Part shown: piece by piece, positions 30,713 through 64,000 of the stretch | Numbering within the stretch: the first letter of the stretch is position 1 | How the letters are laid out: every line of letters starts with the position of its first letter | Source: Lentisphaera profundi | GTDB taxonomy: Bacteria; Verrucomicrobiota; Lentisphaeria; Lentisphaerales; Lentisphaeraceae | Length of the DNA: 64,000 bases | Direction: 5' to 3' | Assembly: GCF_028728065.1 (NCBI RefSeq) | Contig: NZ_CP117811.1 | Span: 1,178,001-1,242,000 of the forward strand | Notes under the pieces: model-generated | Databases searched by the model: none | What the model saw: the letters and a program-made list of their open reading frames with translations, nothing else | What the model was told of the DNA's origin: nothing | Program-made: the position numbers and the translations under genes

Positions 30713-31049
30713 AGACTAAGTAGTGCTCCCAAGAGAACACGAAGAGTTATCGAATTTTAATGCCGGCGGGTCGCCAGCGCTCCCAAGAGAACACGAAGAG
30801 TTATCGAATTTTAATGCCGGCGGGTCGCCAGCGCTCCCAAGAGAACACGAAGAGTTATCGAATTTTAATGCCGGCGGGTCGCCAGCGCTCCCAAGTGAAC
30901 ATGCAAGGGAGTACTCATGCAAGCTATGAGCTAGGAATTCAAAATGGAGTACAGAAGAGTACAAAAATTGTGGAGTCCGCTAAGAGTGCTTGCTTAAATG
31001 ATAAGCATCAAAGTTAGAGTTATTCTATTGAAAATTAAAAAATAAGAAA
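30713..31049. repeat. Tandem 54-bp repeat array with REP-like core
   Basis: Three identical 54-bp units (30725-30886) and the first bases of a fourth start at 30725, 30779, 30833 and 30887. Each contains a GCCGGCG-GGT-CGCCAGC near-palindrome and GCTCCCAAGAGAACACG. The related GC-rich core recurs at 55146-55216. As 54 is a multiple of three, the array is open on both strands, which creates repetitive frames with no ribosome-binding site; I do not regard these as genes. The remaining stretch to the next promoter holds nothing recognisable. Confidence 0.9.
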
Positions 31050-34150: not shown

Positions 34151-35299
34151 ATGATGAAAAATCTAAGCTTGTTATTTTGTACTATTTTAAACATTGGTGT
34201 TTTGGCTGAAGAGCCTAAAGCCTTGCCTACAGAAGCTGCCATTAAAATGGCTGAGACTGTCATTGCTGAAACCGCTTTAGAAAAAGATCAACAGCCTACG
34301 CGTTACAATTACTGGATGTACCAAAACTACATAATTGCCGAAGGCATAAAAAATATGGGGGATGCCTTGGGTCGCCCAGAATTCAGTGAATATAAAGAAA
34401 AACAACTCATGTATTTCTGTGATTCTTATAAAAAAATTACAGATACACGATCACAAAATCATTACCTAAAACCAAATTCTCTATGGCATAGTGGTATGGT
34501 TGCCAGTTTTGTTGAAGCACAGGCGACAAGCAATCATCCCGAAATTGCCCGTGGAATATCTTACTTCCAAGGCATGTTGAATAGAGCGCCTAAAATTACC
34601 GATGGAACACACACTCGCTATAAACCTCGATGGAAGTCAAAGGGTGTGCAAATTGACGATTTATACATGCTTGTTCCCTACTGGGTACGTAAATCCAAGC
34701 AAAGTGGCAATCCAAAATACCTTGAGAAAGCCATAGAAGAAACTCTTAACTACAATAAGTATTTGTGGAATCCGCAAACAAAACTGATGCATTGTCTATG
34801 GCTGGAAAAGAAGCCAGAAGCCAAAATTCATCACTGGGGACGTGGCAATGGCTGGTTTGTCATGGCCATTACTGACTTATTGAACTTTGTTCCTGAAAAT
34901 CACCCAAAAAGAGCTGAACTCCTAAAGATCTACAATAATGTTATGCTAGGTCTTATGGCTCGTCAAAATAAAGACGGCCTATGGCACCAGGTTTTAAATC
35001 GCCCTGAAAGTTATACCGAAACATCCTGCTCCGGCATGTTTACCTACAGTCTCTTACTCGGCTCTAACAAGGGTTGGTTACCTTCATCGGCGCGTACTGC
35101 AGGTATCAAAGGTTGGAATGGACTGCAGACAAAGTTAACGGATAAAAATCAACTCAAAGACGTGTGTGTCGGAACGGATATGTCCGAAAAAGTGCAATAC
35201 TTTTTTACGCGCCCCCGAGTCACCCACGATCAACATGGCATAGGCCCCTTCCTATTGGCTGCCGCAGAAATTATTAAACTTAAGTCAAACAAGCTCTAA
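34151..35299 (+). CDS. GH105/GH88-type unsaturated uronyl hydrolase (1)
   Basis: A 382-aa secreted protein (signal peptide residues 1-18, ATG preceded by AAGGA). It has the (alpha/alpha)6-barrel signature of unsaturated rhamnogalacturonyl/glucuronyl hydrolases: RYNYWMYQNYIIAEGI, SLWHSGMVAS, IDDLYMLVPYW (catalytic-region Asp pair), HHWGRGNGWFVMAITDLL and ETSCSGMFTYSLL. These enzymes hydrate the 4,5-unsaturated uronate left at the non-reducing end by polysaccharide lyases, which implies lyase activity upstream in the pathway. It is very similar to the next gene, so they arose by tandem duplication. Whether GH88 or GH105 by formal family needs a profile search; the motifs favour GH105. Confidence 0.93.
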   Translation: MMKNLSLLFCTILNIGVLAEEPKALPTEAAIKMAETVIAETALEKDQQPTRYNYWMYQNYIIAEGIKNMGDALGRPEFSEYKEKQLMYFCDSYKKITDTRSQNHYLKPNSLWHSGMVASFVEAQATSNHPEIARGISYFQGMLNRAPKITDGTHTRYKPRWKSKGVQIDDLYMLVPYWVRKSKQSGNPKYLEKAIEETLNYNKYLWNPQTKLMHCLWLEKKPEAKIHHWGRGNGWFVMAITDLLNFVPENHPKRAELLKIYNNVMLGLMARQNKDGLWHQVLNRPESYTETSCSGMFTYSLLLGSNKGWLPSSARTAGIKGWNGLQTKLTDKNQLKDVCVGTDMSEKVQYFFTRPRVTHDQHGIGPFLLAAAEIIKLKSNKL

Positions 35300-35405
35300 T
35301 TCATAAAATATAAGTGATTCAATTAAAGGAAAATATTAGCTACTTATGAAACATCTAATATTACTACTGTGTGCAGTCTTAGTGACTAGCACTTATGGAC
35401 AAGAA
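35222..35405 (+). repeat. 184-bp duplicated junction (copy 1): GH105 3' end, spacer and signal-peptide start
   Basis: Near identical to 36408-36591 at a constant offset of 1186 bp. It spans the end of GH105 (1), the complete spacer with its AAAGGAAAA ribosome-binding region and the first 20 codons of GH105 (2). Confidence 0.92.
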
Positions 35406-36485
35406 GCAAAACCCTTGCCGGTGAAGTCTGCCATTAAAATGGCTGAGACGCTAGTCGCGAACACTGCTCTTAAAAAAGGCCAAAAGCCAAGGCGTTATAA
35501 TTACTGGATGTACCAAAATTACATGATAACAGAGGGTATAAAGGCGATGGGCGAGGCTTTAGGTCGCCCGGACTTCAGCTCTTATCAAAATAAACAGATG
35601 CTGTACTTTCTCGAAGAGTACAAAAAAATTAAACCTATGACGGGCATGTACCTACATCCAGGAACCATGTGGCACTGTGGTATGGTCGCTAGCCTTTATG
35701 ACTTAAAAAAAACAAGTGACCATCCGGAAATTGATCGAGGAATTAGCTATTTTCAAAAGATGTTAAATAATGCTCCTAAAGTAGCTGATGGTACCTTAGC
35801 TCGATATAGACCTGAGTGGAAATCTAAGGCTATTCAAATTGATGACTTGTACATGGTTAGCCCATACTGGGTGCGTAAATCGGTTGATCATGGCGAAGCT
35901 AAATATCTTGATTTGGCGATCGAAGAAACCCTTAGTTATTACAAGCATCTGTGGAACGCTGAGACAAAATTATTTAATTGTCTATGGCTCGAAAAAAAGC
36001 CGGAGATTAAGATTCCGCACTGGGCTAGAGGCAATGGCTGGTTTGTTCTGGGCATCACGGATTTGCTAAATTTCGTGCCCGAAAACCATCCGAAACGAGC
36101 TGAGCTTTTAGAGGTCTATAATAATGTTATGCAGGGTCTTGTGGCGCGTCAAAATAAAGATGGCTTATGGCATCAGGTATTAGATCACCCGGAAAGTTAT
36201 ACCGAGACATCGAGCTCCGGCATGTTCACTTACAGCCTATTGCACGGCTCTGCCAAGGGCTGGTTGCCGCCATCTGCTCGCACTGCCGGCTTAAAAGGTT
36301 GGAACGGACTGCAGACGAAGTTAACAGACAAAAATCAATTAAAAGATGTTTGTAGGAGTACCGGTATGTCTGAGGACCTCGACTACTACTTTAACCGTGA
36401 ACGGATTACCCACGATCAACACGGCATAGGCCCCTTCCTATTGGCTGCCGCAGAAATTATTAAACTTAAGTCAAACAAGCTCTAA
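35346..36485 (+). CDS. GH105/GH88-type unsaturated uronyl hydrolase (2)
   Basis: A 379-aa tandem paralogue of the preceding gene, with a signal peptide (MKHLILLLCAVLVTSTYGQ) and the same catalytic landmarks (RYNYWMYQNYMITEGI, MWHCGMVASL, IDDLYMVSPYW, PHWARGNGWFVLGITDLL). The two differ mainly before residue 120 and near KTRPxxTHDQHGIG; their final 25 codons are almost identical in DNA. The 3' end, the intergenic spacer and the start of this gene recur around the start of the following sulfatase (36408-36591), a sign of recent copying. Two enzymes of one type may serve different neighbouring sugars or sulfation states. Confidence 0.93.
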   Translation: MKHLILLLCAVLVTSTYGQEAKPLPVKSAIKMAETLVANTALKKGQKPRRYNYWMYQNYMITEGIKAMGEALGRPDFSSYQNKQMLYFLEEYKKIKPMTGMYLHPGTMWHCGMVASLYDLKKTSDHPEIDRGISYFQKMLNNAPKVADGTLARYRPEWKSKAIQIDDLYMVSPYWVRKSVDHGEAKYLDLAIEETLSYYKHLWNAETKLFNCLWLEKKPEIKIPHWARGNGWFVLGITDLLNFVPENHPKRAELLEVYNNVMQGLVARQNKDGLWHQVLDHPESYTETSSSGMFTYSLLHGSAKGWLPPSARTAGLKGWNGLQTKLTDKNQLKDVCRSTGMSEDLDYYFNRERITHDQHGIGPFLLAAAEIIKLKSNKL

Positions 36486-36591
36486 TTCATAAAATATAAG
36501 TGATTCAATTAAAGGAAAATATTAGCTACTTATGAAACATCTAATCTTACTACTGTGTGCAGTCTTAGCTACTAGCACTCATGGACAAGAA
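36408..36591 (+). repeat. 184-bp duplicated junction (copy 2), supplying the sulfatase leader and signal peptide
   Basis: Copy of 35222-35405 with a handful of substitutions. It spans the end of GH105 (2), the spacer and the first 20 codons of the sulfatase at 36532, so translation signals and signal peptide are those of a GH105 gene. Confidence 0.92.
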
Positions 36592-38073
36592 ACGCAAGCC
36601 TTGACTGAGCCGGCAGTCGCGAAAACGGCTCTTAAAAAGCGCCCGAATATTTTGTTTGCTATTGCCGATGACATGTCGCATGCAAGCGCCTATGGACACA
36701 AATGGGTAAGCACACCCCATTTCGATAAACTAGCTAGTGAGGGAATACTGTTTAAGAACGCATTTACCACTAATCCGAAGTGTGGACCATCGCGTGCTGC
36801 AACCTTGGGCGGACGCCATTTCTGGCAGATGAAAGCCGGATCGTGTCATTGGAATGTGTGGCCGAATGAATTAAAAATTTATACCGACCTCTTGGCAGAA
36901 GCTGGTTACCACGTTGGCCTGACCGGTAAGGGCTGGGGACCTGGAGACTACAAGAAACGCGGGGGACGTGTTCATAACCCTGCGGGGAAGGCCTACAATA
37001 CGCAGAAGAAAAAATTCCAGGTGGGCATAAGCGATAATAACTACTCAGGTAATTTTAAGGAGTTTCTTAAAAAGCGAAAACCAGGGCAGCCGTTCTGCTT
37101 CTGGTACGGAGCAAAAGAACCTCATCGTGGGTATCTAGCAGGTTCGGGAATTAGAAGCGGTCTTGACCCTAAAACCGTGAAAGTACCGAGTTACTACCCA
37201 GACCATGCCGATGTGCGCAGCGACCTTCTGGATTATGCTCTGGAGGTGAACTGGTTTGATAAACACCTCGGCGAGATTGTTGAACACCTGCGCGAGATTG
37301 GGGAGCTAGACAATACCCTGATTATTGCAACTAGTGATAACGGAGCACCCTTTCCACGTATCAAGGGACAGATATACGATGAAGACTTTCGTTTGCCAAT
37401 GGCTGCACGCTGGGGTGCTGTCCACAAAGGTGGAGCAGTTGTTGAGGACTTTGTGAACAATATCGATATTGGTCCAACCTTTCTTGAAGCCGCAGGTGTA
37501 GAAATTCCGGAGGAGATGTCTGGCCGAAGCTTTGTTGATATTTTCAAAGCAAATATAAGCGGTTTTATTGATCCGAAACGCGACTTTGTTTGTGTGGGAC
37601 GCGAGAATCATGATTTAGGCCGGGAAGGGGATCTGGGCTATCCTGTGCGCGCAATACGGACTCGAGACTACCTGTATGTACATAACTTTGCTCCGGATCG
37701 GTGGCCGGCGGGCAACCCTGAAACAGGTTTTACAAACTGTGACAGTTCGCCGACGAAAAGTCTGATCCTCAAGTTGCATAAAGAGGGTAAAAGTCAGTAC
37801 TTTGAGGCAAATTTTGGGAAGCGGCCTCAAGAGCAGTTGTTCAAGTTGTCAGTTGACCCGGAATGCATGAACAATCTGGCTCAAAACCCGGAGTATTCTA
37901 AGATAAAAAAAGAACTGTGGGAGCAGTTGAAGACTACATTGATAGAGACTAAAGACCCTCGCATCCTAGGCAAGGGCAAGGTGTTTGATGATTATGAATA
38001 TATCGGAAGTGACAAAGCTAAACACTCATGGAAAGCCTATATAGAGGGTTGGTGGAAACGACAAAGGTATTAA
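36532..38073 (+). CDS. Secreted sulfatase with GH105-derived N-terminus
   Basis: A 513-aa type I sulfatase. The catalytic region begins at about residue 37 (RPNILFAIADDMSHASAYG), with formylglycine motif CGPSRAATLGG (Cys about 83), VGLTGKGWGPGDY, CFWYGAKEPHRGY and TLIIATSDNGAPFPR. The first 36 residues are not sulfatase-like: MKHLILLLCAVLATSTHGQE plus a segment ending AKTALKK match the signal peptide and mature start (ANTALKK) of the upstream GH105 enzyme with an eight-residue deletion. The gene therefore seems to have been spliced behind a GH105 leader after its own signal was lost. Reading frame and motifs are intact, so it should be exported and active. Confidence 0.93.
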   Translation: MKHLILLLCAVLATSTHGQETQALTEPAVAKTALKKRPNILFAIADDMSHASAYGHKWVSTPHFDKLASEGILFKNAFTTNPKCGPSRAATLGGRHFWQMKAGSCHWNVWPNELKIYTDLLAEAGYHVGLTGKGWGPGDYKKRGGRVHNPAGKAYNTQKKKFQVGISDNNYSGNFKEFLKKRKPGQPFCFWYGAKEPHRGYLAGSGIRSGLDPKTVKVPSYYPDHADVRSDLLDYALEVNWFDKHLGEIVEHLREIGELDNTLIIATSDNGAPFPRIKGQIYDEDFRLPMAARWGAVHKGGAVVEDFVNNIDIGPTFLEAAGVEIPEEMSGRSFVDIFKANISGFIDPKRDFVCVGRENHDLGREGDLGYPVRAIRTRDYLYVHNFAPDRWPAGNPETGFTNCDSSPTKSLILKLHKEGKSQYFEANFGKRPQEQLFKLSVDPECMNNLAQNPEYSKIKKELWEQLKTTLIETKDPRILGKGKVFDDYEYIGSDKAKHSWKAYIEGWWKRQRY

Positions 38074-38108: not shown

Positions 38109-39689
38109 GTGAAGAAACTTAAATTTATCATAAAATACAGTTTACTGGGTGCCATGTTGCCAGCACTGTTCTGTAGTACTCTGACTGCGGCAGCCCCGTC
38201 TTCGCCTAAGGGTTACGACGTGGCAGGCAGGCCGAATATCATCGTCATCTTAGCCGATGACCTGGGCTATTCGGATCTGGGCTGTTACGGCGGTGAAATT
38301 CAGACCCCGAATATTGATCAACTGGCGCGTGAAGGAGTCCGGTTTACTGGCTTCAAGAACACCGCCCGTTGTACGCCGTCACGCGCCTCTCTGCTGACCG
38401 GTCGCTACTCGCATTCAGTCGGGGTGGGCGCTATGCAGCAAGACCAGCATTTACCCGGTTATCGCGGACAGCTTTCGGCCGATGCACCGACCATCGCCGA
38501 AATCCTGAAACCGCACGGCTATGCAACGGGTATTGTCGGGAAATGGCACCAGACCTTCACCGGCAAATCAAAACAGAAACCGTTATATCCGCTCGACCGC
38601 GGCTTCGACTTTTTTTACGGCACTTGGTGGGGTGCGAAGGACTATTTCAGCCCCAAGTTCATGATGAAAAACAGTGAACACATACCGGACAGCACTACAT
38701 ATCCCGCTGACTTTTATCTGACCTATGCGCTCTCCGATTCCGCAATTGAGTTTGTGGACGCGCAGTTGGGTCAGGAGAATCTATTCTTTTTGTACCTAGC
38801 GCACTACGCGCCACACGCCCCGATTCAGGCACCGGCGGATCGGATCCAAAAGTGTATCGACCGCTATAAAGTTGGGTTTGTGCAGCTCCAGCAGGAACGA
38901 TTTGAGCGTCAGCAGGAACTGGGAGTGGCACCCGATCATGCAGCAACCATTGACCAGTCCAGTAAATGGAACACACTCAGTGAGGCCGAGAAAAATGAGT
39001 GGGTAACCACGATGGCAACCTATGCCGCCATGATTGAGATAATGGATGAGGGGATCGGGCAATTAATTGATGTTTTGAAGAAGAATGGTCAATATGACAA
39101 TACCCTGATACTCGTGCTCAGTGATAACGGTTCAACACCCAATCATAAGGGGACGAGGAATTCGGCTAATCTTTGTGCCGCACTCAGCAACACGCCATTC
39201 AGCGGAGTCAAAGCCCATGCCCTTGAGGGAGGTATCTCTTCACCACTGATCGTCAGTTGGCCGGATAAGCTGAAAGAATATGCCGGCCAAATTCGGAATG
39301 GACGCTGTCATATTATCGATATTTTACCGACCTGTCTGGATGCATCTGGGACCAAATTCCCCGATTCATTTAAAGGAATTATGCCGGTGCAAGCGGATGG
39401 AATAAACTTGATGGCTGCGGTAAAAGGGGCTGAATTAGAAAATCGCCCCTTTTTCTGGGAACATCTATAAAGCCGTGCTGTTTACCGTGATGGTTGGAAA
39501 TTGCTTGCAGATAAGACGCTGTGGAAACTGTATGATCTGAGCAAGGACCCTGGCGAGCAATGCGATTTATCCAGTAAGCATCCTGAACGGGCTTCCGGAC
39601 TCAAAGCGCTCTGGACCGAATGGGCAGAAGAGTATGATGTGATTCCTTGGCCTTCAGCCAGGAAGAAATTTCCTGCTAAATTACAGTAA
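38109..39689 (+). pseudogene. Sulfatase interrupted by an in-frame stop codon
   Basis: From a GTG at 38109 the frame gives 453 residues of a sulfatase closely related to the one at 29165-30712: signal peptide, NIIVILADDLGYSDLG, CTPSRASLLTGRYSH and VLSDNGSTPNHKG. It then ends at TAA (39468-39470) in the sequence FFWEHL-stop. The same frame continues for 72 more codons (SRAVYRDGWKLLADK, WKLYDLSKDPGEQCDL) to 39689, matching the paralogue's C-terminus without a gap. The paralogue has EHHKSRAVY at this point, so a few base changes created the stop. The missing end includes the GWKL strand found in most sulfatases. Either the gene is newly inactivated, a 453-aa form is made, or the base calls are wrong. 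G+C is clearly higher than in the paralogue. Confidence 0.85.
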
Positions 39690-40789: not shown

Positions 40790-40857
40790 AAACTGCGAGT
40801 GCAATGTGTTCGCTCCGCTCTTTTGTACTGACTTTAAATTTAATCAGGATTATAAAT

Positions 40858-42288
40858 ATGAAAACCCTACTAACATTGATTTTATATACATCTTTGAGTA
40901 TGACTATGTTTGCCCAAGATTCAGAGAAACTCAACATCCTCTGGATCATAGCCGAGGATATGTCTCCCGATCTGGCTTGCTATGGCAATAAGGTCGTGAC
41001 AACGCCAAACATTGACTCCTTGGCGGCCAAAGGGATGAGGTTCAGTAATGTCTTTACCACTGCCCCTGCGTGTTCTCCGAGCAGGACGGCACTCGCAACA
41101 GGAGTCTATCAGACGACGCTCGGCGCCCATCACATGCGCTACAGTACCGAGCTCAGACCGGACCTCCCCAAAGCGGTCAAGGTATTGCCGGAGTTGATGC
41201 GCGAGAATGGATACTACACGGGGAATATCAAGGGAATTTGCGGCACGGGAACAGGGAAGGATGACTGGCAATTCAATGTACCGGGGAAGTCATGGGACAC
41301 CCATTCGTGGAAGGACTTGACCAAACGCCAACCTTTCTTTGCTCAGATCAATTCCTCGCAATCCCACCGCGGATTCTCGTCAACCAAGAACATTGCAAAA
41401 GAGAAAATCAAGATTCCTCCGTACTACCCGGATCACCCTGTGAGCAGACACGACTGGGCCGGATACTACAATGAGATAAATAAGTTCGATCGGCAGGTCG
41501 GTGATATCCTGAAACGTCTTGAGGCCGAGGACCTCGCGAAGAACACGATCGTCTGCGTCTTTGCGGACCATGGCAGGCCGATGATTCGCGGAAAGAACTG
41601 GCTGTATGACAGTGGAACGCAGATCCCGCTGGTTATCTACTTCCCCGAAGGGATGAAGAAACCCAAGGCGTACCAAGCGGGAAAGACGAACACCGAACTA
41701 CTCAGTGCCATCGATCTGGTGGCAGAAACCGTTCTTATAGCCGGCGGCAAGATCCCTGCTTGGATGCAGGGCAGAAGTTTCCTCCGAAAAGACTCCAAAC
41801 CGCGGAATTACATCCACACCGCTGCCGACCGTTTCGGGAATGTCGACACATGCAGCCGGGCTGTTCGAACCGATAGGTTCAAATACATCCGGAACTTCAA
41901 GACGCCCGGATCGATCAATGAATGCACGACAGCATACCGTCGAGCATCGCATCCGATTTACCACCTGTTGAACATCATGGAAGACAAGAATCTACTGACA
42001 CCTGCCCAGGCTCAGCTTCTAAAGCCTCTCGCGGATGAGGAATTATACGACCTGGTGAATGACCCATACGAAACGCTTAACCTCATCGGCAAGAAGGGTT
42101 TCGACACAATTCACAAAGAGCTCAAAGAACGAATGGCGGAATGGATTGAATTCAGTAAAGACAAAGGCCTCGAGAAAGATAGCGACGCCATCGTTGAGCA
42201 TTTCAGAGAATACGGTAACACTACAATGAAAAGCAGAGCGAAAAGTATTCAGAAAAGGCGGTTGTCAGTCGAAAAGTACTTTAAGTAA
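40858..42288 (+). CDS. Secreted sulfatase (heparan-sulfatase-like subfamily)
   Basis: A 476-aa sulfatase. The ATG at 40858 is preferred because it yields a good signal peptide (MKTLLTLILYTSLSMTMFAQ); the longer frame adds 18 residues with no signal. Landmarks are LNILWIIAEDMSPDLACYG, CSPSRTALATGVYQTTLGAHHMR (Cys about 69), FFAQINSSQSHRG, TIVCVFADHGRPMIRGKNWLYDSGTQIPL and the late DEELYDLVNDPYE. The IAEDMSPD and ADHG...YD(S/E)GT patterns place it with the sulfatases at 59927 and 61408. Base composition is much more GC-rich than in the flanking AT-rich genes, with many C/G third positions, suggesting a later arrival. Confidence 0.93.
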   Translation: MKTLLTLILYTSLSMTMFAQDSEKLNILWIIAEDMSPDLACYGNKVVTTPNIDSLAAKGMRFSNVFTTAPACSPSRTALATGVYQTTLGAHHMRYSTELRPDLPKAVKVLPELMRENGYYTGNIKGICGTGTGKDDWQFNVPGKSWDTHSWKDLTKRQPFFAQINSSQSHRGFSSTKNIAKEKIKIPPYYPDHPVSRHDWAGYYNEINKFDRQVGDILKRLEAEDLAKNTIVCVFADHGRPMIRGKNWLYDSGTQIPLVIYFPEGMKKPKAYQAGKTNTELLSAIDLVAETVLIAGGKIPAWMQGRSFLRKDSKPRNYIHTAADRFGNVDTCSRAVRTDRFKYIRNFKTPGSINECTTAYRRASHPIYHLLNIMEDKNLLTPAQAQLLKPLADEELYDLVNDPYETLNLIGKKGFDTIHKELKERMAEWIEFSKDKGLEKDSDAIVEHFREYGNTTMKSRAKSIQKRRLSVEKYFK

Positions 42289-48684: not shown

Positions 48685-50133
48685 ATGCGACTTCTTTTAT
48701 TTATCGCTTTATCACTTTATCTAAATGCCCAAGACAAGCCGAATATTGTCCTCATCATGGTCGATGATCTTGGGGGGAGAGACTTAGCCGTATACGGAAA
48801 TAAATTTAACGAAAGTCCCAATATAGACAAGTTAGCCACGCAGGGCATGGCCTTTAATCAAGCTTATGCAGCACCTGTGTGCTCAGCAACCCGTGCGAGT
48901 ATTCAGTCGGGACAAACACCAGCTCGAGTGGGTATTTTTGATTTCATCCCTGGTCATTGGCGCCCTTATGAAAAAGTGATTGTGCCCCATCACAAAGTAC
49001 AGCATTTGCCCAAAGATATTTTCACTCTTGGTGATGTCATGAAATCGGCGGGTTATAAAACCGGCTATTTTGGTAAATGGCACCTTAATGCTAGGAACGC
49101 AAAGGACAAAAAATCTCGTCATACTCCGGATGTGCGAGGCTATGACAAGTCTCATATGTATGCTGGAGGGGGATTTTATCGTCCTGTTTTTCAACCGGCT
49201 TATAAGCCCAATAAACCCAAACGTTTAAGCCAGGTGCTCACTGATATGGGCGTTGATTTCATTAAAGAAAATAAAGACCAACCCTTTTTTCTGTTTGTCT
49301 CTCATTATGATGTTCACGTGCAATTAGATGCTGATAAAAAACTCATTGACAAGTATCTAAATAAAAAAAGAGTTCCCAATTACCCTGGCAATGCGGTTTA
49401 TGCTGCGATGATTGAGCACACCGACGATAGCGTTGGCCAGTTAATGAAGGCAATTGATGATCAAGGTTTAGCCGATAATACTATTTTTATTTTTTACTCC
49501 GATAATGGCGGTGTTGATAATCGCTATGACGATATTCCTTTGTTAGGCGGACGCAGTGCCAATGTCTATCCGGAAGGACACCCATTGAGATATGTGGCGA
49601 CCTCTAATGCACCACTTAGATCAGGGAAAGGCACTTTGTACGAAGGCGGCATACGTGTACCGCTCATCGTGAAGTGGCCTGGGAAAGTAAGTCCGGGAAC
49701 GAGAACTGAAGCCGTTTTTAGCAGTAGCGACTTTTATCCAAGCTTTTTGGAAATGGCTCATGCCAAGGCCCCCAAAAACCAAGTCCTCGACGGCGTCTCT
49801 ATGGTGGGGGCATTGACTAAAAATAGTTTTGACCCAGAGCGAGAGTTATTCACTCACTACCCCGTTTATCACCATGATCAACCCATGTCGGCATTGAGAA
49901 AAGGTGATTGGAAAATCATTGAAAACTTAGTGAGTAAAGAGTTTTACCTCTACAACATAAAATACGATGTTAATGAAATGGTGGACCACAAAGTAAGCTT
50001 GCCAACCAAGTTTGCAGAAATGAAAGTGGCTTTAGCAAAATGGCAAAAAGAGACAAAGGCGCAAATGCCCGTACCAAACCCCAATTTTGATCCATCAAAA
50101 CGTTATCAATGGGGAGAAAACCCCTATAAATAA
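48685..50133 (+). CDS. Secreted sulfatase (CxAxR type)
   Basis: A 482-aa type I sulfatase with a short signal peptide (MRLLLFIALSLYLNAQ). Landmarks are NIVLIMVDDLGGRDLAVYG, CSATRASIQSGQTPARVG (formylglycine Cys about 73; Ala replaces Pro, an accepted variant), KTGYFGKWHLN, FFLFVSHYDVHVQLD, TIFIFYSDNGGVDNR, YEGGIRVPLIVKWPG and MSALRKGDWKIIENL. Complete by length and landmarks. It is followed 150 bp later by a second sulfatase of similar type. Confidence 0.95.
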   Translation: MRLLLFIALSLYLNAQDKPNIVLIMVDDLGGRDLAVYGNKFNESPNIDKLATQGMAFNQAYAAPVCSATRASIQSGQTPARVGIFDFIPGHWRPYEKVIVPHHKVQHLPKDIFTLGDVMKSAGYKTGYFGKWHLNARNAKDKKSRHTPDVRGYDKSHMYAGGGFYRPVFQPAYKPNKPKRLSQVLTDMGVDFIKENKDQPFFLFVSHYDVHVQLDADKKLIDKYLNKKRVPNYPGNAVYAAMIEHTDDSVGQLMKAIDDQGLADNTIFIFYSDNGGVDNRYDDIPLLGGRSANVYPEGHPLRYVATSNAPLRSGKGTLYEGGIRVPLIVKWPGKVSPGTRTEAVFSSSDFYPSFLEMAHAKAPKNQVLDGVSMVGALTKNSFDPERELFTHYPVYHHDQPMSALRKGDWKIIENLVSKEFYLYNIKYDVNEMVDHKVSLPTKFAEMKVALAKWQKETKAQMPVPNPNFDPSKRYQWGENPYK

Positions 50134-50180
50134 CGCGTGTAATACGGGCTCTTCAATGAGAAGTCATTCATTATAAATAT

Positions 50181-50210
50181 TAGGGCAAGCCCTAGAGAAG
50201 CAGCTGCTTC
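50181..50210 (+). promoter_or_regulatory. Two adjacent perfect palindromes between sulfatase genes
   Basis: TAGGGC-AA-GCCCTA (50181-50194) is followed two bases later by the perfect palindrome GAAGCAGCTGCTTC (50197-50210). There is no T run directly after, so a terminator is uncertain; a protein-binding site is equally possible. Confidence 0.35.
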
Positions 50211-50282
50211 GTAAGCATCTTCTTACACATTTTTCTTCTGTTCACTCCCGCTACTGCGATTAAAATTTTAAAAAGGTTTATT

Positions 50283-52166
50283 ATGAAAAAAAAGATTTAT
50301 TGTACCAATATTAGGGCCACTATTATGATTAAGAAGTATTTTTTCTTATTGACTTTCCTCACAGTGGGATTTGTGGCAGCTGCCGATAAGCCTATGAATG
50401 TCATCCTCATTTTAGCCGATGACTTAGGTATTTCCGATACCAGTTTAGGAGGCTCAAAGCTATATCAAACGCCCAATTTAGAGAGGCTGGCTAAACGTGG
50501 AGTTTACTTCACCAATGCCTACGCGGCCAGCCCCCTTTGCTCGCCAACTCGCTCCAGTATTCTTACTGGACAAAACCCAGCCAGAACAGGTTTCACGGCC
50601 CCTCATGGGCATTTGAAAAATGTTGTTTTAACTGCCCGAGCCGGCAAAGCTGCAGCGCCTTCAAAGAGACAAGTTCCGCCCGTATCAGTCAATAGATTAT
50701 CGACAGAATATTTAAGCCTTGGCAAGGTTTTTAAAAATGCCGGATACAAAACAGCCCACTTTGGCAAATGGCACCTTGGCAAATCACCTTACTCACCCTT
50801 GGAACACGGATTTGATATAGATATCCCCCATTGGCCGGGACCCGGACCTGCCGGTTCCTTTGTCGCACCTTGGAGATACCCTAACTTCAAAGAGAATTAT
50901 CCCGGTGAGCATATTGATGATCGTTTAGGTGACGAAATAGCAAAATATATTAGCGAAAATAAAGACCAGCCCTTTTTTATTAATTTTTGGCAATTCTCTG
51001 TTCATGCGCCATTTAATGCTAAGCAGGAACTTATTGATAAATACAGAAAACTCATCGATAAAAACAATCCTCAACATAACCCCGTTTATGCTGCAATGGT
51101 TGAATCTATGGACGACAGCATAGGCAAAGTCATAGATGCCCTCGAAACAAATAAACTGATGGAAAAAACAATCATTGTCTTTTTTTCAGATAATGGCGGA
51201 AATATGTATAATGTTGTCGATGGTACAACGGCCACAAGTAATAAACCTTTCCGCGGGGGTAAAGCCTCTATATACGAAGGAGGAACACACGTACCCGCTA
51301 TTGTCGTTTGGCCAAATCAAACAAAAACCGGCGTTAGAAATGACAGTTTAATTCAGAGTGAAGATCTTTATGCAAGTATCTTAGAAATGGCAGCTTTACC
51401 GGTGGATTACCAGCAGGCAAAAGATTCCATTAGTTTTGTGCCCGTTTTAAAAGGTCAGGAAGCCAAAAGAAAACAAGTTTTTACCTACTTCCCACATTCA
51501 CCAAATGTTCCCGATTGTGTACCACCATCTGCAGCCCTGAGGATCGGTGATTGGAAACTCATCAAAGTCTTTCATGACAATCCAGATTTAACTGACCGAT
51601 TTGAACTTTATAATCTTGCAAATGACCAAGGAGAGATGCTTAACCTCGCTTCTCAAAACCCCGAAAAAGTTAAAAGTATGAATGAAGTCATTGATCAGTA
51701 CCTTAGGAAGAGTGCATGTATAAAGCCTATCAAAAACCCCAAATATAATAGCAAATTCATACAATCTGCCGGAAAATTAAAAGCTCGTGGTCATGGCATT
51801 TTTTCCAAAGGTAAAGCAGGCTTGTACATAAGAAAATACGCCGATAATCAAGATATGAGTTTCACTTTACCCACTCCTGCTCTCAAAGCAGGGAAATATA
51901 CTTTGCAAATGGATATTCGTTCGCTATCGGCTAAAGGAGATATTCTGGTCAAAGGCTTTTCACCAGGAACGAAAGTTACTGATTTTACCAAAATCAATTT
52001 AGTCGATGACGGCTTATGGCACCAAAGTTCACATCCTTTTACAGTGATAAACACCCCATCCAAAGTGATGAAGTTTATCCTGGATTTTCCTCAGGGGCAA
52101 CTTCATTTGAGATCCCTCAAAATACTCGATGAAAATAAAGATCAAGTTATCAATCTAAAGTTTTAA
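50283..52166 (+). CDS. Secreted sulfatase with C-terminal beta-sandwich extension
   Basis: A 627-aa sulfatase. The ATG at 50283 has an AAAAGG ribosome-binding site; an internal ATG (50325) would also give a signal peptide (KKYFFLLTFLTVGFVAAA) but lacks one. Landmarks are NVILILADDLGISDTSLGG, CSPTRSSILTGQNPARTG (Cys about 92), TAHFGKWHLG, FFINFWQFSVHAPF and TIIVFFSDNGGNMYN. The family normally ends near residue 500; the last 115 residues (KAGLYIRKYADNQDMSF, AGKYTLQMDIRSLS, KFILDFPQGQLHLRSLKI) look like a carbohydrate-binding beta-sandwich. This extra module would tether the enzyme to its polysaccharide. Confidence 0.93.
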   Translation: MKKKIYCTNIRATIMIKKYFFLLTFLTVGFVAAADKPMNVILILADDLGISDTSLGGSKLYQTPNLERLAKRGVYFTNAYAASPLCSPTRSSILTGQNPARTGFTAPHGHLKNVVLTARAGKAAAPSKRQVPPVSVNRLSTEYLSLGKVFKNAGYKTAHFGKWHLGKSPYSPLEHGFDIDIPHWPGPGPAGSFVAPWRYPNFKENYPGEHIDDRLGDEIAKYISENKDQPFFINFWQFSVHAPFNAKQELIDKYRKLIDKNNPQHNPVYAAMVESMDDSIGKVIDALETNKLMEKTIIVFFSDNGGNMYNVVDGTTATSNKPFRGGKASIYEGGTHVPAIVVWPNQTKTGVRNDSLIQSEDLYASILEMAALPVDYQQAKDSISFVPVLKGQEAKRKQVFTYFPHSPNVPDCVPPSAALRIGDWKLIKVFHDNPDLTDRFELYNLANDQGEMLNLASQNPEKVKSMNEVIDQYLRKSACIKPIKNPKYNSKFIQSAGKLKARGHGIFSKGKAGLYIRKYADNQDMSFTLPTPALKAGKYTLQMDIRSLSAKGDILVKGFSPGTKVTDFTKINLVDDGLWHQSSHPFTVINTPSKVMKFILDFPQGQLHLRSLKILDENKDQVINLKF

Positions 52167-56529: not shown

Positions 56530-57056
56530 GATTGAAGTGCCTTCTGTGAGTTCACACACTTGAAGAGAAGGTCTCTTAAGCGTCCGAGCTTTTTGTAGAG
56601 TGAATTGACTGAAACCGATTGATTACTGGCTAAAACTTTTACTGAGCCATGATTGAGGTAGGGGGCCATGACCAATTGTTGATCCTGCTCAGATAACTTT
56701 TTCAAGCATTGGCCAATGGCATTCTGCCTCCAGGTATACTCCTGTTCATCAATTTTTTCTGCATCATCGGCAAGTAAGTTCACTAGGGTCTCGCTAAACA
56801 CCAAACGTTCATTTTTTTTCTTTTGCATCAAATTCATGCATTTGAAACGGATAATTGTTTTTCCCCAGGGGAAAAAGCCTTCTTCGCCATCGAGTTGATC
56901 GAGTTTTTCCCACATCACGATGCTAGCCTCCTGTAAAACATCGTCGACATTTCTCCAGCTCGGCAAGATGCTCCTAGCAAAGACGCGCAGGGCATTTTCG
57001 TGCTTTAAAAAAAGCTTCAAAAAATCAGCCTCTTTAAGTTCTGTGTTCTGGTCCAT
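56526..57056 (-). CDS. ECF-type RNA polymerase sigma factor
   Basis: A 176-aa sigma-70 family protein of the small PVC-type group (resembling the Rhodopirellula/Verrucomicrobium family). Region 2 is at about 15-80 (HENALRVFARSILPSWRNVDDVLQEASIVMW, then FFPWGKTIIRFKCMN for -10 recognition and melting). Region 4 is at about 118-172 (CLKKLSEQDQQLVMAPYLNHGS, VSVNSLYKKLGRLRDLL) and binds the -35 box. It is translationally coupled to the FecR-like gene. An element identical to those before apbE, both FAD oxidoreductases and a pseudopilin lies 33 bp upstream, suggesting self-activation. The first 80 codons and the whole upstream region are duplicated at 63415-64000. Confidence 0.93.
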   Translation of the reverse strand: MDQNTELKEADFLKLFLKHENALRVFARSILPSWRNVDDVLQEASIVMWEKLDQLDGEEGFFPWGKTIIRFKCMNLMQKKKNERLVFSETLVNLLADDAEKIDEQEYTWRQNAIGQCLKKLSEQDQQLVMAPYLNHGSVKVLASNQSVSVNSLYKKLGRLRDLLFKCVNSQKALQS

Positions 57057-57089
57057 AATAAAATTCTCTTAGCTTGCTTTCTTATATAC

Positions 57090-57115
57090 TAATTTGCTTA
57101 AAATAAAAACCTGCC
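57090..57115 (-). promoter_or_regulatory. Candidate autoregulatory ECF-type promoter of the sigma gene
   Basis: The minus strand reads GGCAGGTTT-N10-CAAATTA followed by GTATA, with AAAAAAGGGT upstream. It ends 33 bp before the sigma start. Identical boxes and spacing to those at 25985, 31058 and 47705. Confidence 0.7.
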
Positions 57116-57188
57116 ACCCTTTTTTAATAAAAGTCAATAATAAGTCCTTTTTTTTGCAAAATAGCTTCTCTAGTTTTAAGACAAAAAA

Positions 57189-57284
57189 CAAGAAGATTAA
57201 CTTTATTTTACTCATGGATGTAGGAATAAGACGGAAACTAAAGAATAACCTGAATCCGTGAGCTACATTAAGTTAATCCTCTTG
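57189..57284. promoter_or_regulatory. Long imperfect dyad in the sigma upstream region
   Basis: The left arm (57189-57230, CAAGAAGATTAACTT then CTCATGGATGTAGG) and the right arm (57245-57284, complement CAAGAGGATTAACTT then CTCACGGATTCAGG) form a 40-bp imperfect inverted repeat around a 14-bp spacer. The CTCAYGGAT element recurs at 57396 and 53771. Nothing else is recognised between 57116 and 57587. Confidence 0.6.
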
Positions 57285-57587
57285 ATCTTTCGCCTTCATT
57301 GACTTACAATTTTTTTCAAAAGACCTACGGGTATTCCTGCAAAAAGTTGTAAAGTTCTGAAACCAAAATCCCTACGAGATTATTACAAAGCCAGCTCACG
57401 GATTCAGGAATAAGTCAAAAAATATAATTTTGCTGTAAGATTTTCTTAGTCCAAGATAATACAGAACTAAGAATTAAATGCACAGAGAAATTTATGACTT
57501 AAGAAGCTCCTTGGCCAAGACTAAGATTTATCTTCAAAGAACTCATGAATTCTTCATTTTTATTGATTAGAATTAAAAGGAATCATT

Positions 57588-63103: not shown

Positions 63104-63655
63104 TCATTCATTTGCGATCAAAATCTTACTATGGCAAGAAGTACGATTGGCTTCTTTCTTTGTCTTTCTGTTGATTAAAAATGGCAATGAGTTTTTTAGC
63201 AATTCAGGGTGCTGACCGGTACCTTTGTGACCATCGTGCATTCCGGTGAGCAAAGTATAACGAGCGGGAGCACAATAGGCGCTGCCATAGTAGCGTTTAA
63301 ACTCCATGCCCTGTTGAGCTATAGAGTCGATATTTGGCGTTGTCAGGTGTTTTTGTCCATAGTGACTTAACATTCCTTTGCCGAGGTCATCGGCATAAAT
63401 CAAAATGATATTGGTTTTCTTTTGCATCAAATTCATGCATTTGAAACGGATAATTGTTTTTCCCCAGGGGAAAAAGCCTTCTTCGCCATCGAGTTGATCG
63501 AGTTTTTCCCACATCACGATGCTAGCCTCCTGTAAAACATCGTCGACATTTCTCCAGCTCGGCAAGATGCTCCTAGCAAAGACGCGCAGGGCATTTTCGT
63601 GCTTTAAAAAAAGCTTCAAAAAATCAGCCTCTTTAAGTTCTGTGTTCTGGTCCAT
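63104..63655 (-). pseudogene. Chimeric frame: sigma factor region 2 fused in frame to a truncated sulfatase
   Basis: The first 80 residues are identical to the ECF sigma factor at 56526-57056 (whole of region 2). At the Lys-Lys codons the sequence switches, in frame, to a sulfatase start: TNIILIYADDLGKGMLSHYG, then CAPARYTLLTGMHDGHKGTG with a proper C-x-P/A-x-R motif. Sulfatase similarity ends after about 70 residues, and an unrelated tail (INRKTKKEANRTSCHSK) closes the frame. Sigma region 4 and most of the sulfatase are lost and there is no signal peptide. The sigma promoter is retained upstream, so a 183-aa product could be made. Neither parent activity is expected; a region-2 fragment could still touch RNA polymerase, which is speculative. 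Confidence 0.88.
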
Positions 63656-64000
63656 AATAAAATTCTCTTAGCTTGCTTTCTTATATACTAATTTGCTTAA
63701 AATAAAAACCTGCCACCCTTTTTTAATAAAAGTCAATAATAAGTCCTTTTTTTGTAAAATAGCTTCTCTAGTCTTAAGACAAAAAACAAGAAGATTAACT
63801 TTATTTTACTCATGGATGTAGGAATAAGACGGAAACTAAAGAATAACCTGAATCCGTGAGCTACATTAAGTTAATCCTCTTGATCTTTCGCCTTCATTGA
63901 CTTACAACTTTTTTCAAAAGACCTACGGGTATTCCTGCAAAAAGTTGTAAAGTTCTGAAACCAAAATCCCTACGAGATTATTACAAAGCCAGCTCACGGA
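63415..64000 (-). repeat. 586-bp direct repeat (copy 2), continuing past the window edge
   Basis: Counterpart of 56816-57402 in the same orientation, about 6.6 kb away. The similarity begins in the sigma codons where the sulfatase fragment stops and is still intact at the last base of the window. It holds no further gene up to the edge. Confidence 0.95.
63689..63714 (-). promoter_or_regulatory. Candidate ECF-type promoter of the sigma-sulfatase chimera
   Basis: An exact copy of the element at 57090-57115 carried by the direct repeat, ending 33 bp before the start of the chimeric frame. Confidence 0.65.

Follow-up and report, generated by a model that had tools for sequence, protein, structure and literature searches.

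A sulfatase gene lying directly downstream of two GH105-like genes in a 64,000-nucleotide stretch of Lentisphaera profundi DNA (the window) is probably a chimera that captured the leader of a GH105 gene at the PN motif of its own body. Its leader appears to have been exchanged again later, and joins of this type seem to recur in the locus and in the genus; the probability of this combined reading is put at roughly 85%. The join itself is directly seen in the sequence, and we infer both the route that led to it (a deletion or an unequal crossover) and the translation and export of the sulfatase by the leader. The genome of the window (G000) was compared mainly with its congeners Lentisphaera marina IMCC11369 (G001) and G002, and signal peptides were called by eye.

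Table 1. Positions in the window of the genes, repeat copies and proposed joins discussed in the text.
Feature	Position	Strand	Basis or remark
GH105-like gene, body type A	34151..35299	+	Pfam PF07470 (Glyco_hydro_88); last ~26 codons of B/J type
Junction unit J, copy 1: GH105 3′ end, 46-bp spacer, first 20 codons of next gene	35222..35405	+	179/184 identity to 36408-36591
GH105-like gene GHb, body type B with leader J	35346..36485	+	Pfam; orthology comparison
Junction unit J, copy 2: second GH105 3′ end, spacer, first 20 codons of sulfatase	36408..36591	+	Alignment with copy 1
Chimeric sulfatase (S): GH105-derived leader, type I sulfatase body	36532..38073	+	PF00884; CGPSR at residue 84
Presumed captured GH105 part: signal peptide, linker, first domain residues to ALKK, 24-nt in-frame deletion	36532..36639	+	
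Fusion junction	36634..36645	+	Identity of L. marina orthologue from 36634; PN codon 36643
Sulfatase S4	40804..42288	+	Leader unlike G002 orthologue; identity from 40932, NILW codon 40933
Sulfatase Y	48685..50133	+	Carries leader A, found in both congeners on orthologue of next gene X
Insertion of 1,662 bp: Y body, spacer, new X leader	48735..50396	+	Inside older sulfatase gene at leader/body junction
Sulfatase X: old body behind new leader	50283..52166	+	Congener alignments

The genes are connected by the junction unit J, for which the original prediction gave the right coordinates but claimed exact repetition. Five mismatches separate the two copies (35236, 35360, 35383, 35384 and 35394), the longest exact run measures 123 nt (35237-35359), and the two spacers are identical. 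Outside the copies identity drops on both flanks, on the 3′ flank down to chance. Both GH105-like genes pass the Glyco_hydro_88 model with 191.1 and 184.7 bits (cut-off 26.6); this model, which the donor thus matches, does not split GH105 from GH88, the GH105 label being that of the original prediction. Across the genus the GH105 bodies fall into types A and B, ~70% identical in DNA between types and 88–96% within a type. The body of GHb is orthologous to the first GH105 gene of G002 and to the second of G001. The last 90 nt of the upstream gene are 91% identical to GHb, although the two bodies reach only 69.5%.

The sulfatase passes PF00884 with 116.2 bits against a cut-off of 25 (residues 38-323, Pfam), and its own domain begins at RPNIL, at about residue 38. 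The formylglycine motif, which in type I sulfatases takes the form CxPSR, is intact. Upstream of the domain, the leader is 95.4% identical to that of GH105 over 196 nt, whereas the bodies have no protein match. The likeness continues after the signal peptide: between 36602-36643 and 35440-35481, 34 of 42 positions are equal, a value reached by none of 20,000 shuffles, the match being shifted by a 24-nt (8-codon) in-frame deletion in the sulfatase (spacing 1162 versus 1186). Protein likeness to GH105 had been predicted to extend to ALKK, and it does so, ALKK occupying residues 33-36. The captured stretch thus comprises the spacer, the signal peptide, and roughly the first 36 residues of a GH105/GH88-type enzyme, and it extends into the Glyco_hydro_88 domain, which starts at residue 34 of GHb.

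These domain residues bear on the direction of transfer. It is very improbable that the GH105 genes received their leader from the sulfatase: the sulfatase holds Glyco_hydro_88 residues, outgroup sulfatases lack this leader, and a GH105 gene of another genus (G005), the one outgroup gene examined, has a similar leader together with the same N-terminal segment (AET..ETALEK), which refutes a founding event in this direction. Some exchange of that kind may nevertheless have taken place, as the N-terminus of GHb in G000 (VANTALKK) has sulfatase sites missing from other B-type GH105 genes. An incoming, GC-richer sulfatase, as originally proposed, finds little support in the composition. The sulfatase body has a G+C content of 47.4% against 41–43% in the GH105 genes, yet the next three sulfatases of the locus range from 46.8 to 50.7%; a recent GC-rich incomer was discarded since its fellow sulfatases are equally GC-rich. 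The neighbours of the body are moreover the same in all three congeners, which speaks against a recent arrival. In the adjoining sulfatase gene (38109-39470) an in-frame stop follows 453 codons and the frame continues beyond it; the orthologues in G001 and G002 are uninterrupted (526 aa), and the gene is, judged by its sequence, probably either truncated or a recent pseudogene.

The sulfatase protein is present in 11 of the 59 genomes searched (E 1e-50). G002 encodes the full protein including the GH105-like leader, with the same fusion and the same 24-nt deletion. In L. marina only residues 34-513 match (97%), behind an unrelated leader; the body is 95.7% identical in DNA, identity setting in 9 nt 5′ of the PN codon. 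A relative of the kind the original prediction had looked to, with another signal peptide on the sulfatase, has thereby been found. The nearest outgroup orthologue (72%), in a MAG labelled Planctomycetota (L151), has a third leader and no adjoining GH105 gene. Because the leaders in L. marina and in this MAG differ, the GH105 leader must have been acquired on this sulfatase body; together with the Glyco_hydro_88 residues and the GH105 leader of G005, the unrelated leader in a congener upholds the proposed capture from GH105 to sulfatase.

The gene order is A-B-S in G000, B-A-S in G002, and A-B-T-S in G001, T being another sulfatase that precedes the orthologue of the chimera. The 3′ region of T has two 85% relatives elsewhere in G001, and the 50 nt immediately preceding the sulfatase body correspond to the leader of yet another sulfatase. 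The leader in G001 is most likely a later replacement. In the rpoB tree G001 and G002 are grouped with a bootstrap of 48 (97.2% versus 95.2–95.6% identity), so this polarity is no more than likely. Under another species tree G001 could keep the older state, though its leader, too, looks secondhand.

Since the junction and the 24-nt deletion are common to G000 and G002, they point to one event before the split of these genomes or to a transfer between them; the capture is in our reading of the alignments genuine, and it either predates that split or was passed between the two. Its age is not recorded in the 184-bp repeat. Between G000 and G002, identity is 80.0% in the sulfatase leaders (-60 to +60) and 96.1% in the bodies, a difference in divergence (24/120 versus 55/1400) that is significant (Fisher p 1e-9). 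Each leader is closer to the GH105 leader of its own genome (96.7% in G000, 85.8% in G002), and given the shared fusion the repeat therefore dates the last exchange rather than the capture. Dating the fusion by substitutions in the repeat, which had been proposed, was abandoned on account of this homogenisation within each genome. Leader J is carried by body B and S in G000 and by body A and S in G002. In G000, the leader in front of GHb is 90.8% identical to the A-body leader of G002, as against 64.8% for the leader on the orthologue of its own body (-60 to +60). By this comparison the leader goes with the position and the body does not.

Promoter capture, also part of the original prediction, is not favoured. 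The spacer measures only 46 bp, and a sigma-70-like site is absent from its + strand; in the region as a whole, seven such sites were counted against 8.1 in shuffles, the sigma-70-like type being the only one scored. From the length and content of this spacer, the gain from the capture is more plausibly a ribosome-binding site and a signal peptide.

In the proposed mechanism, the spacer and the 5′ part of a GH105 gene up to about codon 36, which together supply the ribosome-binding site, a Sec-type signal peptide, the linker and the first residues of the domain, would have been placed in front of the sulfatase domain, directly upstream of its conserved PN motif. This could most simply have come about by a deletion or an unequal crossover. 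The remainder of a tandem GH105 copy would have been lost in it along with the old leader of the sulfatase, which would then be translated and exported with its neighbour's leader. No genome compared shows an intermediate in which the sulfatase is preceded by a third GH105 copy, and microhomology at the junction is short and A-rich only. Later exchanges among leader copies would have kept the leader GH105-like in each genome and swapped the GH105 body between them, and in L. marina the sulfatase leader would later have been replaced, leaving the gene behind another sulfatase. More generally, an enzyme body and the leader of the next gene would form segments that are inserted, duplicated and exchanged; as both of their ends fall at signal-peptide/domain boundaries, reading frames would survive. 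Three copies of a repeat with 54-bp spacing lie between two genes at 30722-30901, and single or partial copies occur elsewhere in G000, G001 and G002, many of them at G002 C22:47-48 kb. Dispersed repeats of this family were rejected as mediators, since they are found there and at other places and are absent from the junctions.

Further joins were detected in the same locus. The gene in front of S4 also differs from G002, and identity begins one base 5′ of the motif codon. Leader A on Y is 88–91% identical to its congener counterparts over 233 nt, the bodies behind it being only ~40% identical at the protein level, while the Y body is 90% identical (aa) to G001 C1:2155811. The insertion responsible has empty sites in both congeners, where the flanks are contiguous within 8 nt (G001 2375285/2375293, G002 42262/42270). 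A Y-Z sulfatase pair at G001 C1:2.155 Mb matches the insert in a single alignment of 1,759 columns with 82.8% identity. At the left end of the insertion the old leader (MRLLLFIALSL..) is joined to the new body Y (PN codon 48739); at its right end the new leader is joined to the old body X (motif codon 50397). By being placed at the signal-peptide/domain junction, the 1,662-bp insertion makes two complete genes out of one sulfatase gene. Judging from these alignments, the capture-type join is recurrent in the locus, as exemplified by the X/Y insertion, the S4 leader, and the two GH105 bodies exchanged between species. At the end of the window, a 587-bp duplication (56816-57402 and 63415-64000; 99.3% identity, 6.6 kb apart, reaching the window end) spans the 5′ half and upstream DNA of a small gene, which we take to be sigma-factor-like.

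Signal peptides evolve fast, and such leaders might merely look unrelated with no exchange having occurred. Leader identity indeed declines with body identity among the 114 of 118 sulfatase orthologue pairs that could be scored, and the leaders of S1 and of a FAD gene may be accounted for in this way; these two were not counted as swaps, divergence being sufficient, nor was S5 (42450), where the difference is mainly a linker indel. As leaders decay generally at lower body identity, a test for leader swaps has no power there. Among the 21 pairs with a body DNA identity of at least 0.90, however, leader identity is no higher than 0.65 in six, close to the random level (0.59, sd 0.05); these six, of which S5 is one, all lie in this locus. 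Bodies that are 95–98% identical in DNA although their leaders match no better than at random, leaders that positively match other genes, and an insertion with empty sites refute the explanation for S, X, Y and S4 and make it highly improbable.

Sharing of leaders was surveyed in the DNA of 1,233 genes (1,026 from G000-G002, 207 from G004/G005) by in-phase likeness within the same genome between genes with non-homologous bodies. Left out of this survey were 74 prepilin-like genes, whose N-termini are common as a domain (50 were left out of another leader comparison), and the sample was aimed at sulfatase-rich stretches covering ~10–16% of each congener genome, i.e., it is not random. Eighteen hits were obtained. 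Removal of a sulfatase fragment (G000 C2 1137007/1140356, one of 13 strong hits) and of five weak hits with E of at least 3e-5, taken as chance (one pair within a single locus, four not), left 12 strong pairs. In all 12 the two genes lie within one locus, as compared with 3,292 of 150,709 pairs in the background, and the 12 stem from only four loci. No sharing pair occurred among the 207 genes of G004/G005, and none among 654 pairs of non-homologous genes sharing a locus, drawn from 25 non-Lentisphaera loci, where about two would be expected at the genus rate (12/3,292), so that no real difference outside the genus is indicated.

The richest example is found in a fucosidase/sulfatase locus of L. 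marina (G001 C2 865-881 kb, within L101:1-18001 at 865-883 kb), where seven genes in a row, with four types of fold (two GH95, three sulfatases, one fucosidase, and one PA14/beta-helix protein), carry variants of one leader, MITQKIKTMLTVAALAFAGQLFAAE. Such a series would be expected if a common leader cassette served many exported enzymes. This explanation is, however, hardly tenable for the chimera, because leader sharing is local to each locus and because leader J, searched in six genomes, is confined to GH105 genes and this one sulfatase (three matches each in G000 and G002, none in G001, G003, G004 and G005), which supports capture instead. Both in G002 (L113:10625-15827) and in G001 (L102:10058-15260), the leader MKKTFLSLMLISSSLLA occurs on two adjacent unrelated genes, one of which encodes a DUF7133/cytochrome c protein. 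In G002 C12, the leaders of a protein with a sub-threshold GH106 match and of a sulfatase 11 kb away (L112:14432-16555 and L142:6109-7683) are 80% identical.

Whether leader repeats promote these events is a separate matter. It has been considered that they are active recombination handles, homologous recombination at leader copies or at conserved N-terminal sulfatase motifs moving a body and the next leader in frame, a cassette-like way of building polysaccharide loci; this exceeds the main reading, in which the joins are merely said to recur, and is conceivable, yet on balance doubtful. A repeat in G001 C2 (89.1% over 1,979 columns) begins 7 nt upstream of one sulfatase start, ends 50 nt inside the next gene and is bounded at both ends by leader copies (85–98% identity), the interval between J copies is occupied by body B in G000 but by body A in G002, and both ends of the X/Y insertion fall at the sulfatase motif. 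Against this stand the shortness of the leader copies (~50–200 nt) and their often modest likeness (80–90%), and no circular form, strain-level variation or enzyme was seen. Selection for intact frames would, furthermore, yield the same survivors: joins elsewhere in genes destroy the frame and are lost, so a preference of recombination for leaders does not follow from their position, and a preference for these sites is not proved. That Lentisphaera leaders (ribosome-binding site plus signal peptide) act as in-frame recombination sites for gain, loss and exchange of a body with the next leader can therefore be put forward only tentatively; if true, the leader of an incoming enzyme would be one already proven in the operon, and its translation and export would be secured at once.

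The chimera resembles several known systems. Gene conversion, or concerted evolution, homogenises tandem paralogues, and the J copies have likewise been homogenised within genomes; unlike in the usual case, the process in Lentisphaera affects the leader only and operates between genes with non-homologous bodies. In blaNDM-1, the first residues derive from aphA6, only six residues matching according to PMC12326980, which cites Toleman 2012. There, too, the coding N-terminus of an unrelated gene is fused to an exported enzyme, but the Lentisphaera sulfatase shares a whole signal peptide and about 17 further residues, stands beside its donor, and belongs to a locus in which joins recur. Polymorphic toxin cassettes, as far as described in the accessible part of PMC3482391, join diverse C-terminal bodies by recombination and in this way similarly exchange bodies behind a kept N-terminal part, whereas the units in Lentisphaera are separate metabolic enzymes with unrelated folds and the kept part is a ribosome-binding site with a signal peptide. 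No report of natural signal-peptide exchange between neighbouring enzyme genes of a polysaccharide locus was found in a search of mostly open literature. Leader capture as such is already known from NDM-1; no case recurring at signal-peptide boundaries within one polysaccharide locus and in other loci of a genus was met in that search, within the portions of the sources available. The locus is accordingly read as one probably remodelled by recombination at leader/body junctions, an event of a known kind that is unusually recurrent here.

Sulfatase-rich marine bacteria carry well over 100 sulfatases per genome (at least 139, 138 and 139 matches in the three congeners). In the assembly of loci of this type, the unit of change can, according to these data, be an enzyme body together with the leader of the next gene, joined at the export-signal boundary. 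Signal peptides and 5′ ends are consequently unsafe for inferring orthology or age in such loci, and joins of this kind offer a testable route by which new enzymes may become secreted parts of an operon.
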